Source of the DNA: Planococcus halotolerans
GTDB lineage: Bacteria; Bacillota; Bacilli; Bacillales_A; Planococcaceae
DNA: 64,000 nucleotides
Assembly: GCF_003289955.1 (NCBI RefSeq)
Contig: NZ_QLZR01000001.1
Span: 682,001-746,000, forward strand
Direction: 5' to 3'
Shown here: positions 7,692 through 63,393 of the stretch, piece after piece
Layout: each line of letters starts with the position of its first letter
Position numbering within the stretch: position 1 is the stretch's first letter
Program-made: the position numbers and the translations under genes
The notes under the pieces: generated by a model
Databases searched by the model: none
What the model saw: only the letters and a program-made list of their open reading frames with translations
What the model was told of the DNA's origin: nothing

Positions 7692-7751
7692 AAGGCTTCG
7701 CGGACGCGAAGCCTTCCTTAAGGGATTGGAGTTTTTCGCACGGCGAAAAAC
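7692..7751 (+). repeat. Two-hairpin intergenic element, copy H1
   Basis: Two adjacent hairpins: AAGGCTTCGC-GGAC-GCGAAGCCTT (7692-7715) and GTTTTTCGC-ACG-GCGAAAAAC (7731-7751), the second followed by ATCCGCT and a G/T-rich stretch. The same two-hairpin layout with changed but still paired bases occurs at 38920-38979. Array A1 follows 158 bp downstream. The copy lies between divergent genes, so it is not simply the terminator of a neighbour. Confidence 0.75.
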
Positions 7752-7909
7752 ATCCGCTGTTGCTCTTGAACTTCGGGTGTGGGGAATATATTGGGTGGAA
7801 ATAGTGATTGCGGCACGGAATACAGCGATAAATTTCCATGAAATAGTGTTTTCGGCGAAGAATAACTGAAATGCGGGCTGAAGCAGGGGGCGAAAATAAG
7901 CATCCGGGA

Positions 7910-8029
7910 TTCTATGAGCGGTTATTGACGTTCTATGATCACTTATTGGATTCTATGATCACTTATTCGATTCTATGATCACTTATTCGATTCTATGATC
8001 ACTCAACGGATTCTATGATCACTCGGCTG
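7910..8029 (+). repeat. Helically phased array A1, six units, 20-21 bp period
   Basis: The word TTCTATGATCACTTATT recurs with starts at 7910, 7931, 7951, 7971, 7991 and 8011, so the period is 21 bp once and then exactly 20 bp. The first unit has diverged (TTCTATGAGCGG). It lies between divergent genes and about 120 bp upstream of the MBL-fold gene at 8152. Apart from this array and H1 I see no further gene in 7469-8151. Confidence 0.9.
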
Positions 8030-14515: not shown

Positions 14516-14534
14516 TGTTTTGGATTGGTTTTTC

Positions 14535-14554
14535 GCTTTTCGCCTGCGAAAAGC
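14535..14554 (+). repeat. Intergenic hairpin element, copy H2
   Basis: Stem GCTTTTCGC-CT-GCGAAAAGC, preceded by TTGGTTTTTC and followed by ATCCATTTTTCTG and a G/T-rich stretch. It lies directly after the GNAT terminator and 118 bp before array A2. The same stem and CT loop occur at 63041 (plus) and 55180 (minus). Confidence 0.8.
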
Positions 14555-14671: not shown

Positions 14672-14776
14672 TTTACCCGCGGCTGCGGCTTATTTATCCG
14701 CGCCTGCGAGGGTTTTATCCACGCCTAGGCGATGTTTATCCGCGCCTAAAGACTATTTATCCGCGGCTAGCGATTT
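14672..14776 (+). repeat. Helically phased array A2, five units, 21 bp period
   Basis: Five units starting at 14672, 14693, 14714, 14735 and 14756, exactly 21 bp apart. The 14-base core TTTAYCCRCGSCTR is conserved; the seven bases between cores are different each time (CGGCTTA, CGAGGGT, GGCGATG, AAGACTA, GCGATTT). It lies between convergent genes. The open frame running through it as a YPRL heptad is a by-product of the 21-bp period. Confidence 0.93.
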
Positions 14777-16881: not shown

Positions 16882-16955
16882 TTCTTTTGGGTTTGTGCGA
16901 CTGGGGGTTGGGTTTGATCTAGTTGGGGGTGGCTACTTTTTCCGGTCATTTTTGA

Positions 16956-17060
16956 TTTATGCCCAACTTTGCATGAAATACGCCCAACTTCGGTCGATTT
17001 ATGCCCAACTTTATGCGAAATACGCCCAACTTCGCCTGACTTATGCCCAACTAACTAATC
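16956..17060 (+). repeat. Helically phased array A3, five units, 21 bp period
   Basis: GCCCAACTT recurs with GCCC at 16961, 16982, 17003, 17024 and 17045, exactly 21 bp apart. The five bases before it alternate between TTTAT (units 1, 3, 5) and AATAC (units 2, 4), so the true unit is a 42-bp pair. The same word and the same alternation occur in A8. The frame reading YAQL repeats across it is not a gene. Confidence 0.93.
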
Positions 17061-17150
17061 TGCAGCTAGCGAGTCGATATTTATTATCACTATCAGTCTC
17101 CTGACAAGTGAAATCGATCTCTCTCATCTTCATTTTTCGAGCGATTTATA

Positions 17151-17234
17151 TTTACTCCCAACTTCGACCTGTTTACTCCTAACTTTCATCGATTTACTCC
17201 CAACTTCAATGTTTTTATTCCCAAGTAGCCATTT
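17151..17234 (+). repeat. Helically phased array A4, four units, 21 bp period
   Basis: TTTACTCCCAACTT starts at 17151, 17172, 17193 and 17214. Unit 2 has CCTAAC and unit 4 TTTATTCCCAAG. It stands 90 bp after A3 and shares its word with A7. Confidence 0.92.
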
Positions 17235-38919: not shown

Positions 38920-38979
38920 AACCTTTGCGAACGCAAAGGTTCCTTTAAAAGACTGGAGTTTTTCGCGGCTGCGAAAAAC
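38920..38979 (+). repeat. Two-hairpin intergenic element, copy H4
   Basis: AACCTTTGC-GAAC-GCAAAGGTT (38920-38941) followed by GTTTTTCGC-GGCT-GCGAAAAAC (38958-38979) and ATCCGCTC. Linker bases TTCCTTTAAAAGACTGGAG nearly match those of H1. It begins 20 bp after the ccdA stop; array A5 follows 218 bp later. Confidence 0.78.
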
Positions 38980-39197: not shown

Positions 39198-39302
39198 TAC
39201 TTTCCAAATTTACTCAAATACTTTCCAATTCACCCGAAATACTTTCCAGTTTGGCATAAATACTTTCTAATTAGACTAAAATACTTTCCAGTTCGTTATG
39301 AC
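39198..39302 (+). repeat. Helically phased array A5, five units, 21 bp period
   Basis: TACTTTCCARTT starts at 39198, 39219, 39240, 39261 and 39282. AAA usually precedes the word, giving AAATACTTTCCA, similar in layout to AAATACGCCCAA in A3/A8. The six bases between words vary. It lies between convergent genes. Confidence 0.92.
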
Positions 39303-40762: not shown

Positions 40763-40965
40763 AAGCCATCCCCCGTTGTATATTCTTCATTTATTCCAAT
40801 AAATCCAGCTGCATGCCGGAAATAAAATCTCCTTTTTTATCCATTTACAAGTCTATCATCTACGGGGTATCCAGGTCATTCGCCGTCCCGTAAACATGCA
40901 ATAAAAATAGATGTTGACAAAGTATGGAAACGGGCGTATTTTTGAGCTTATCACATACCTTTTAT

Positions 40966-41123
40966 TCGCTGAATCAGTAATGAGCGGGGGAACCAATTCG
41001 GATAGCAGCCGCTATCCTGGGGTGAATCTTACATTTGTAAGAAGGGATACTCTTAGTCCCTAATCCGACAGCTAACCTCGTAAGCGTTGACTCCATTAAG
41101 AGAAAGGCCGTAGGTTCACCCCT
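40966..41123 (+). ncRNA. ydaO-yuaA c-di-AMP riboswitch
   Basis: Conserved blocks in order: GAGCGGGGGAACC, CTGGGGTGAATC, GGGATACTCTTAGTCCCTAA, CCGACAGCTAACCTCG and GTAAGCGTTG, closing with GGTTCACCCC. This aptamer binds two c-di-AMP and shuts off K+ uptake genes. The gene downstream is a KtrB-type K+ channel, the expected target. The stretch 40763-40960 before it holds nothing I can identify except promoter-like AT-rich DNA. Confidence 0.95.
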
Positions 41124-42624: not shown

Positions 42625-42945
42625 AAGCTTTTGTATGATCATGGGAGAAGGCGCCGGGAGCGGCGTCGCCTGAGTACAGCCGAGCTGAGCATAGCAGAGT
42701 AAATCGTCGAACAGGAAAAGTAGCGCACAGCAGCCTCTCAAAGAGAGCCGGTGGCAGGTGGAAACCGGTGGGACTAATGCGTGAATGGGCCTGTGAGAGA
42801 TGTCCTGAAAATTGAGTAGGGACATCCGTTTCCCCCGCGTTACTGGGGGCCAAGTGAAAGCTGCAATAGCTTTAACATGAGGTGGCACCGCGGTCAATCC
42901 GTCCTCTGTAAGGAACAGTCCTGTTCTTTGCAGAGGGCTTTTTTT
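42625..42945 (+). ncRNA. T-box leader, tryptophan-specific
   Basis: The antiterminator signature GAGGTGGCACCGCGG is at about 42879-42893 and is followed by a terminator (CCTCTG ... CAGAGG, then T run, 42903-42945). In stem I the specifier loop reads GTGAATGGGCCTG, with TGG, the tryptophan codon, in the usual place. Uncharged tRNA(Trp) would thus allow read-through into trpE. Confidence 0.93.
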
Positions 42946-54787: not shown

Positions 54788-54917
54788 ATGACCCGCTCCT
54801 TTCGAATTTCGCGAAATTTACTAACTATATTTTACCATATTTAGAAGTATTCCCTGAGAAGCGAATATAAAATTGCGGAAAACCGGCTAGGAAACCGGCT
54901 TAGTGCGATTCGTTTTA

Positions 54918-55077
54918 CTGAACGCCGATATAATTCGCTGAACGCCGATTTATTTCACTGAGCGCCGATATAATCTCCTGAACGCCGATTTATTTTCCTG
55001 AGCGTTGATATAATTTCCTGAACGCCGATTTATTTTCCTGAGCGTTGATATAATTTCCTGAACGCCGATTAACAAGC
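54918..55077 (-). repeat. Helically phased array A6, eight units, 20 bp period
   Basis: CTGARCGYYGAT recurs eight times at exactly 20 bp from 54918. Units alternate between a tail of ATATAAT and one of TTTATTT, so the repeat is a 40-bp pair. The strand is given as minus because the associated hairpin H5 (55180-55199) is read on the minus strand and precedes the array in that direction. It lies downstream of the gene at 55233. Confidence 0.93.
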
Positions 55078-55179: not shown

Positions 55180-55199
55180 GCTTTTCGCAGGCGAAAAGC
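55180..55199 (-). repeat. Intergenic hairpin element, copy H5 (minus strand)
   Basis: Minus-strand reading: stem GCTTTTCGC-CT-GCGAAAAGC, then ATGCGTTTTTCTGATGAA, which aligns with the sequence after H2. It follows directly after the terminator of the gene at 55233 and precedes array A6 by about 100 bp. Confidence 0.8.
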
Positions 55200-62924: not shown

Positions 62925-63040
62925 AATCACACCCCTTCCATTTACTGTAACATATCGTGGAAACGGTGGCTAAACGACCTTTTGCTCCTATGACAACAGC
63001 CATATAGTCAATAAAGGAATATTAACGAGAGTGGTTTTTC

Positions 63041-63060
63041 GCTTTTCGCCTGCGAAAAGC
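63041..63060 (+). repeat. Intergenic hairpin element, copy H6
   Basis: Stem GCTTTTCGC-CT-GCGAAAAGC, preceded by GTGGTTTTTC and followed by ATCCATTTGTCTTTTGGG. Flanks and stem nearly equal H2. It is read opposite to both flanking genes, so it is not their terminator; array A7 starts 55 bp downstream. Confidence 0.82.
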
Positions 63061-63114
63061 ATCCATTTGTCTTTTGGGCTTGGGGTTGGTCTGCTGGATT
63101 TTAGTGTGGAAATT

Positions 63115-63198
63115 TTTACTCCCAACTTTGCCTCTTTTATTCCCAACTTCAGTCGATTTACTCCCAACTTTGCTGCTTTTATTCCCAACTCGCTTTTT
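63115..63198 (+). repeat. Helically phased array A7, four units, 21 bp period
   Basis: TTTAYTCCCAACTT starts at 63115, 63136, 63157 and 63178. Units alternate TTTACT, TTTATT, TTTACT, TTTATT. Same word as A4. Confidence 0.93.
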
Positions 63199-63288
63199 CC
63201 GCGATTTGGCACCTCTTATTTTTATCCAGAATGAATGAAAAATGCTATCTCACGCGTAATGTGGACGCCCGAATTTAAGCCGGATTTT

Positions 63289-63393
63289 TTTATGCCCAAC
63301 TTTGGTCGAAATATGCCCAACTTCGGCTGTTTTATGCCCAACTTCCACCGAAATACGCCCAACTTTGCCCCATTTATGCCCAACTCGCTTTTC
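63289..63393 (+). repeat. Helically phased array A8, five units, 21 bp period
   Basis: GCCCAACTT with GCCC at 63294, 63315, 63336, 63357 and 63378. The preceding bases alternate TTTAT and AATAT/AATAC. Same word and alternation as A3. It follows A7 by 90 bp, the same distance as between A3 and A4. No gene is visible in 62925-63508 apart from these elements. Confidence 0.93.

Follow-up and report, generated by a model that had tools for sequence, protein, structure and literature searches.

What is the repeating unit of the short intergenic arrays in this stretch of DNA? The window (the whole stretch analysed, 64,000 nt) is part of a 0.94-Mb chromosomal contig in a genome of 3.6 Mb, and it carries the arrays listed below. 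In several of them two kinds of units take turns, from which the initial annotation had concluded that the real unit is a pair of 40 or 42 bp. We compared the arrays with others of this genome and of relatives, mainly Planomicrobium sp. Y74 (hereafter Y74), which belongs to the same genus.

7907..8023 (+): array A1, about 6 units of 20 bp, TATGATCACT core; single-unit copies, unit 1 being the variant TCTATGAGCGG
14693..14773 (+): array A2, about 4-5 units of 20-21 bp, TTTATCCGCGCCTAG core
16953..17052 (+): array A3, 5 units of 21 bp, GCCCAACTT core; patches TTTAT, AATAC, TTTAT, AATAC, CTTAT
17149..17224 (+): array A4, 4 units, TCCCAACTT core; without alternation of the A/T patch
39198..39290 (+): array A5, 5 units of 21 bp, TACTTTCC core; the units of the Y74 orthologue carry TACTGTCC
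54906..55070 (+): array A6, 8 units of 20 bp, CTGAACGCCGA core; TTTATT and ATATAAT strictly alternating over seven units, with exact 40-bp copies
63114..63190 (+): array A7, 4 units of 21 bp, TCCCAACTT core; patches TTTACT, TTTATT, TTTACT, TTTATT
63288..63385 (+): array A8, 5 units of 21 bp, GCCCAACTT core; patches TTTAT, AATAT, TTTAT, AATAC, TTTAT, with a core every 21 bp from about position 63294

Intergenic arrays with a 20-21 bp pitch

The genes adjoining the arrays of the window are ordinary (metallo-beta-lactamase fold, HAD, GNAT, PRK, S51, M1 peptidase) and mutually unrelated, and a link of the arrays to one gene type was rejected on these grounds. Coding DNA was similarly rejected: 20-bp arrays cannot hold a reading frame, and A3 has an in-frame stop where the frame of A8 is open. 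An Rfam search of the window returned only a T-box leader (42698-42909) and a c-di-AMP riboswitch (40957-41101), both of them ordinary and neither located at an array.

The arrays belong to a larger class. We read 1.25 Mb of DNA, ~0.86 Mb from this genome and ~0.39 Mb from Y74, and the tandem repeats in its intergenic part gave 33 rows at a period of 20 and 85 at 21, plus doubles, with 0-3 rows at nearly every other period. The same peak is seen independently of the repeat finder. Exact intergenic 9-mer self-matches number 334 at lag 20 and 754 at lag 21, with a median of 5 per lag, so that self-matching at exactly 20-21 bp lies ~150-fold above other lags; the 9-mer lag counts of genes lack this peak. 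Of the 661 intergenic regions with a length of 80 bp or more, 87 contain self-matches of this kind. If these are binding sites, arrays would be present in roughly one of every eight intergenic regions studied and form a chromosome-wide system.

Nearly all arrays (86/88) are intergenic. Regions between convergent genes hold 33 of these 86, against 18% expected from intergenic length (p = 1.5e-5), while divergent regions are depleted (8 arrays, p = 0.003). An array generally has 4-8 units, in which a sequence-specific core returns in direct orientation every 20-21 bp. The motif families include CCCAACTT, TATGATCACT, CTGAACGCC, TTTATCCGCGCC, TACTTTCC, and TACTGTCC, as well as CCGCACCTCAAA, CCGCAACTAAA, AATCGCCCACAAA, CGATCACAAAT, and TATACGACACCAAAT. 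Special end units were found in two of these families. The first unit of TATGATCACT arrays is the conserved variant TCTATGAGCG (window 7907-8023; G000 C1:768747; L181), and CCGCAACTAAA arrays have a GCGC variant as the last unit.

A CCCAACTT array was found in 5 of the 121 family genomes sampled, all five within the genus and in only part of it, and a TATGATCACT array in 12 of 46 genus genomes. In stretches of Neobacillus niacini and Peribacillus alkalitolerans, in two Planococcus genomes without the CCCAACTT pair, and in two other genera of the family, the intergenic repeats are also mostly of 21 bp, with different motifs. No 21-bp intergenic arrays were detected in small, low-power samples (mostly 20 kb each) of other genomes of the class. 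We found no description of such arrays in the open-licence PMC literature searched, to which the class appears to be new.

Order of units within the arrays

Direct reading confirmed the alternation in A3, A6, A7, and A8 as first described. Most single arrays prove little, since permutation of the unit order within each array gave p = 0.053 for A3, 0.078 for A7, and 0.24 for A8; the value for A6 is 0.002. The larger sample comprised 66 intergenic arrays of this genome and Y74, whose units were aligned to a cyclic consensus. Here, the proposed excess of even lags was found: units two apart are more alike than neighbours, with a mean lag-2 minus lag-1 identity of +0.041 (46 arrays positive, 19 negative; z = 6.0). 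The excess persists when arrays holding recent exact two-unit copies are left out (z = 4.4), and it is present in each genome separately (p <= 0.001). It is strongest in the CTGAACGCC and CCCAACTT families and weaker in the others (z = 2.8). Pooled ungapped splitting of the arrays gave no significant lag-2 excess (p = 0.26) because many arrays mix 20- and 21-bp spacings, and unit alignment was used instead. Alignment-free counts point the same way. Intergenic 9-mer self-matches total 1088 for lags 20 and 21 together, 1101 for lags 40-42, and 414 for lags 60-63. If the 4-5 units of an array were all equally related, lag-2 counts of about 0.7 of those at lag 1 would be expected, and the observed counts fit a lag-2 excess.

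In the CCCAACTT family, the TTTA/AATA patch can be scored directly. The 13 arrays of this genome have 25 unlike neighbours versus 20.2 ± 2.4 in random order (p = 0.03), and alternation is also above chance among 48 arrays from several species (p = 0.0004), a sample inflated by the orthologues that it includes. The first unit is nearly always of the T type, and TATAT is the commonest pattern of five units (10/34); TAAAA and TTTTT arrays are also common, and TAATA arrays occur. For the TATGATCACT family, alternation is not significant (p = 0.08, or p = 0.35 without one array). The part of the initial claim that concerned alternation is upheld, and the part that made the pair the real unit is not.

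Gain and loss of units between relatives

A pair as the real unit finds no support, as a difference of exactly one unit is frequent among orthologous arrays. In A8, 5 units are present in this genome and in P. okeanokoites and 4 in Y74, MER TA 32b, and P. salinarum; the array at C1:388095 has 5 units here and 4 in Y74; and further one-unit differences include those at C1:418132 and 139890 (right-hand block). Between this genome and Y74, the mapped loci are about one unit apart at several sites, two at four (two-unit orthologue differences include A1, A6, and others), three at one, five at one, and none at several.

Growth by duplication of pairs, one of the two explanations offered in the initial annotation, is supported for a subset of arrays, some of which have exact two-unit copies: the runs measure 55 bp in A6, 59 bp at C1:591282, and 37 bp at C1:649458. 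Single-unit copies are equally common, with exact runs of at least 30 bp in four arrays at lag 1 and in four at lag 2. Since orthologues are often one unit apart and single-unit copies are as common, the 40/42-bp pair is not an obligatory unit. The spacers display both kinds of order: ABABABAB in Y74 (C11:184769-184938), AAAA at G123 C12:475355, and ABABCCC in this genome (C1:768755).

The cores have diverged less than the spacers. Between this genome and Y74, divergence amounts to 8.1% in the core (within-array consensus columns), 6.3% in genes, 11.9% in other intergenic DNA, and 27.7% in the variable (spacer) columns, a contrast between core and spacer that is partly built in, because the two classes were set by within-array agreement; unit-number changes also complicate the alignments. 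Two loci at which the whole array has switched motif account for half of the core differences, and without them core divergence is 4.6%. Spacers and flanks are recognisable unit by unit between species, so the similarity of the cores is not simply a product of whole-unit conversion, and purifying selection acting on them would be the simpler reading.

At the A5 site, nearly every unit carries TACTTTCC here and TACTGTCC in Y74 (L138, near G005:C32:244 kb), in identical surroundings. Judged from this alignment, A5 is a whole-array motif exchange at an orthologous site. Such exchanges make the co-evolution of sites and proteins testable by comparison.

Origin and possible role of the arrays

We consider it fairly probable that these are putative binding arrays which gain or lose one or two units at a time and then decay, and that the alternation is mainly a fossil of two-unit duplications. 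A DNA-binding protein would most likely sit side by side on the cores, in intergenic DNA and preferentially between converging genes. Each core would face the same side of the DNA, since a spacing of 20-21 bp corresponds to two helix turns. Tandem duplication or deletion would change the array by one or two units per event, and a two-unit event would copy an A-B pair, so that the array reads ABAB. Later point changes would blur the spacers first, and the constrained columns adjoining the core would keep the memory longest. The arrays may serve as a boundary or roadblock between converging genes. On this account, alternation would be a readable record of how an array grew, and it is no proof of a paired functional unit.

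Hairpins are found beside many arrays. Those in the window are the following:

7731..7751 (+): related hairpin GTTTTTCGC..GCGAAAAAC-ATCC, upstream of A1, with a second hairpin before it
14528..14554 (+): hairpin of the family found upstream of A7/A8, here upstream of A2
38958..38979 (+): related hairpin, upstream of A5, with a second hairpin before it
55180..55199 (-): hairpin of the A7/A8-upstream family, beside A6, in the same relative orientation to the CGTTCAG strand of the array
63034..63060 (+): conserved hairpin GCTTTTCGC..GCGAAAAGC followed by ATCC, upstream of A7/A8

The hairpin consensus is G[CT]TTTTCGC..GCGAAAA[GA]C, often with GGA/ATCC flanks, and it is often the second of a hairpin doublet. 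A hairpin lies within 400 bp of the array in 25 of 43 cases, versus 7.1 ± 2.4 expected under the null, and the family accompanies arrays with different motifs; where its orientation relative to the array was compared, it was the same. Arrays and hairpins could accordingly be remains or parts of a small mobile element whose motifs were spread by transposition, a view that would also accommodate the recurrence of one motif at many loci and the whole-array replacement at A5. We regard this origin as unlikely. The unit-by-unit conservation of spacers and flanks between species argues that most arrays have not moved recently, nor did we find a clean insertion paired with an empty site. Moreover, the Y1 transposases are associated with other palindromes. 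Two Y1 genes were found, and the one on C1 (G000 C1:36840-37660) lies between copies of the palindrome GGGTGACAGTCACCC; the stretch read at the C10 gene contains no GGGTGACAGTCACCC-type hairpin, and the array-associated hairpin is likewise absent from the Y1 flanks. A RAYT/REP origin of the hairpins was rejected because of this different palindrome at the C1 gene. A plasmid or phage origin of the arrays was also rejected, as searches with the arrays tried returned no match to either.

Selection might instead maintain the ABAB order itself, if a dimeric or head-to-head protein contacted T-patch and A-patch units in turn. One argument for such contacts, which also counts against the duplication account, is that the alternating columns of the CCCAACTT family adjoin the core: z is 5.0 in the patch and 3.9 in the first three bases of the spacer, against 1.0 in its distal part. 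This location leaves room for two contact types, whereas a simple duplication of pairs would be expected to show in every variable column that has not yet decayed. It is not decisive for function, because a duplication also remains visible for longer in columns with two states. A further point against the duplication account is that, within one array, the T/A and T/C alternations near the core are not always linked. The frequency of TATAT agrees with selected order as well, and the TATAT-type order at C1:437441 is kept in four species. Yet many arrays lack alternation, including the common TTTTT and TAAAA arrays of the same family, and the TATGATCACT family gave no significant result. The A8 orthologue of MER TA 32b reads T-A-T-T, an order that was broken by the loss of a unit and stayed broken, and the C/T alternation of A7 (TTTACT/TTTATT) is missing in okeanokoites and Y74. 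Taken together, a functional alternation seems quite improbable.

We also think it very unlikely that the arrays act as RNA and not as DNA-binding sites, for example through an unstructured C-rich strand that serves as a Rho loading site between convergent genes. In many array families one strand is indeed rich in C and poor in G (mean absolute skew 0.33), and convergent 3′ ends are favoured, but arrays beside co-directional genes show no preference for a strand (21 in the same orientation, 24 in the opposite one). The fold energies of A3, A6, and A8 do not differ from those of shuffled sequences (A1 differs, z = -2.5), no Rfam match lies at an array, and so sharp a 20/21-bp pitch would be unexpected for a Rho site. 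Finally, alternation as mere chance, seen in striking examples picked by eye without any general tendency, would suit A8 alone and the pooled ungapped split but can hardly be squared with the pooled unit-aligned z of 6, its significance in each genome, and the lag-count ratio.

The nearest known systems are plasmid iterons and partition sites made of tandem repeats, such as parC of pSK41, whose 20-bp repeats are bound by ParR. Like these, the arrays have direct core repeats at about two helical turns, few units, and degenerate end units, and the bound proteins would sit next to one another along one face of the helix. Unlike them, they are chromosomal, occupy dozens of loci, comprise many unrelated motifs, and have no rep or par neighbours; A1, A3, and A6 have no plasmid matches. 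With the REP/BIME elements of enterobacteria the arrays share an intergenic location, a preference for 3′ ends and convergent genes, and genome-wide repetition, often with the array hairpin nearby, but their units are direct repeats without dyad, strictly 20-21 bp apart, and unlike REP/REPIN sequences with RAYT, the array hairpin is not the palindrome that flanks the Y1 genes. Intergenic minisatellites (VNTR) also gain and lose one or more tandem units, have degenerate end units, and vary in unit number between close relatives, as seen here with differences of 1, 2, 3, or 5 units from Y74. They differ from the arrays in that the latter have one unit length (20-21 bp) at nearly all loci, a core kept more than the spacers, and motifs shared by many loci. 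CRISPR arrays similarly alternate short repeats and variable spacers and end in a degenerate unit, but their repeats measure ~24-40 bp, whereas here the whole unit takes 20-21 bp and the spacers are inherited, drift slowly, and are not foreign; no cas genes were present among the ten flanking genes scanned.

More tentatively, the arrays may represent a helix-phased (20-21 bp) type of putative chromosomal binding array in several Bacillales, acting between converging genes, in which pitch and architecture are conserved while the core varies between families and can be swapped throughout an array at an orthologous site. Either co-evolving proteins or one reader of the pitch and A/T patch could then be involved.

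Several observations concern the arrangement of whole arrays. Modules of ~185-265 bp, each with a small 21-bp array, are tandemly repeated at L084 (8214-9241) and L085 (12823-13838). In the double loci A3/A4 (16953-17224) and A7/A8 (63114-63385), the last core of one array and the first of the next lie 111 bp apart in each case. The distance is 69 bp in a further double locus (L072), and these distances all equal 6 modulo 21. In P. okeanokoites, the A7-A8 double array is present twice, 381 bp apart (L046 5827-6431).
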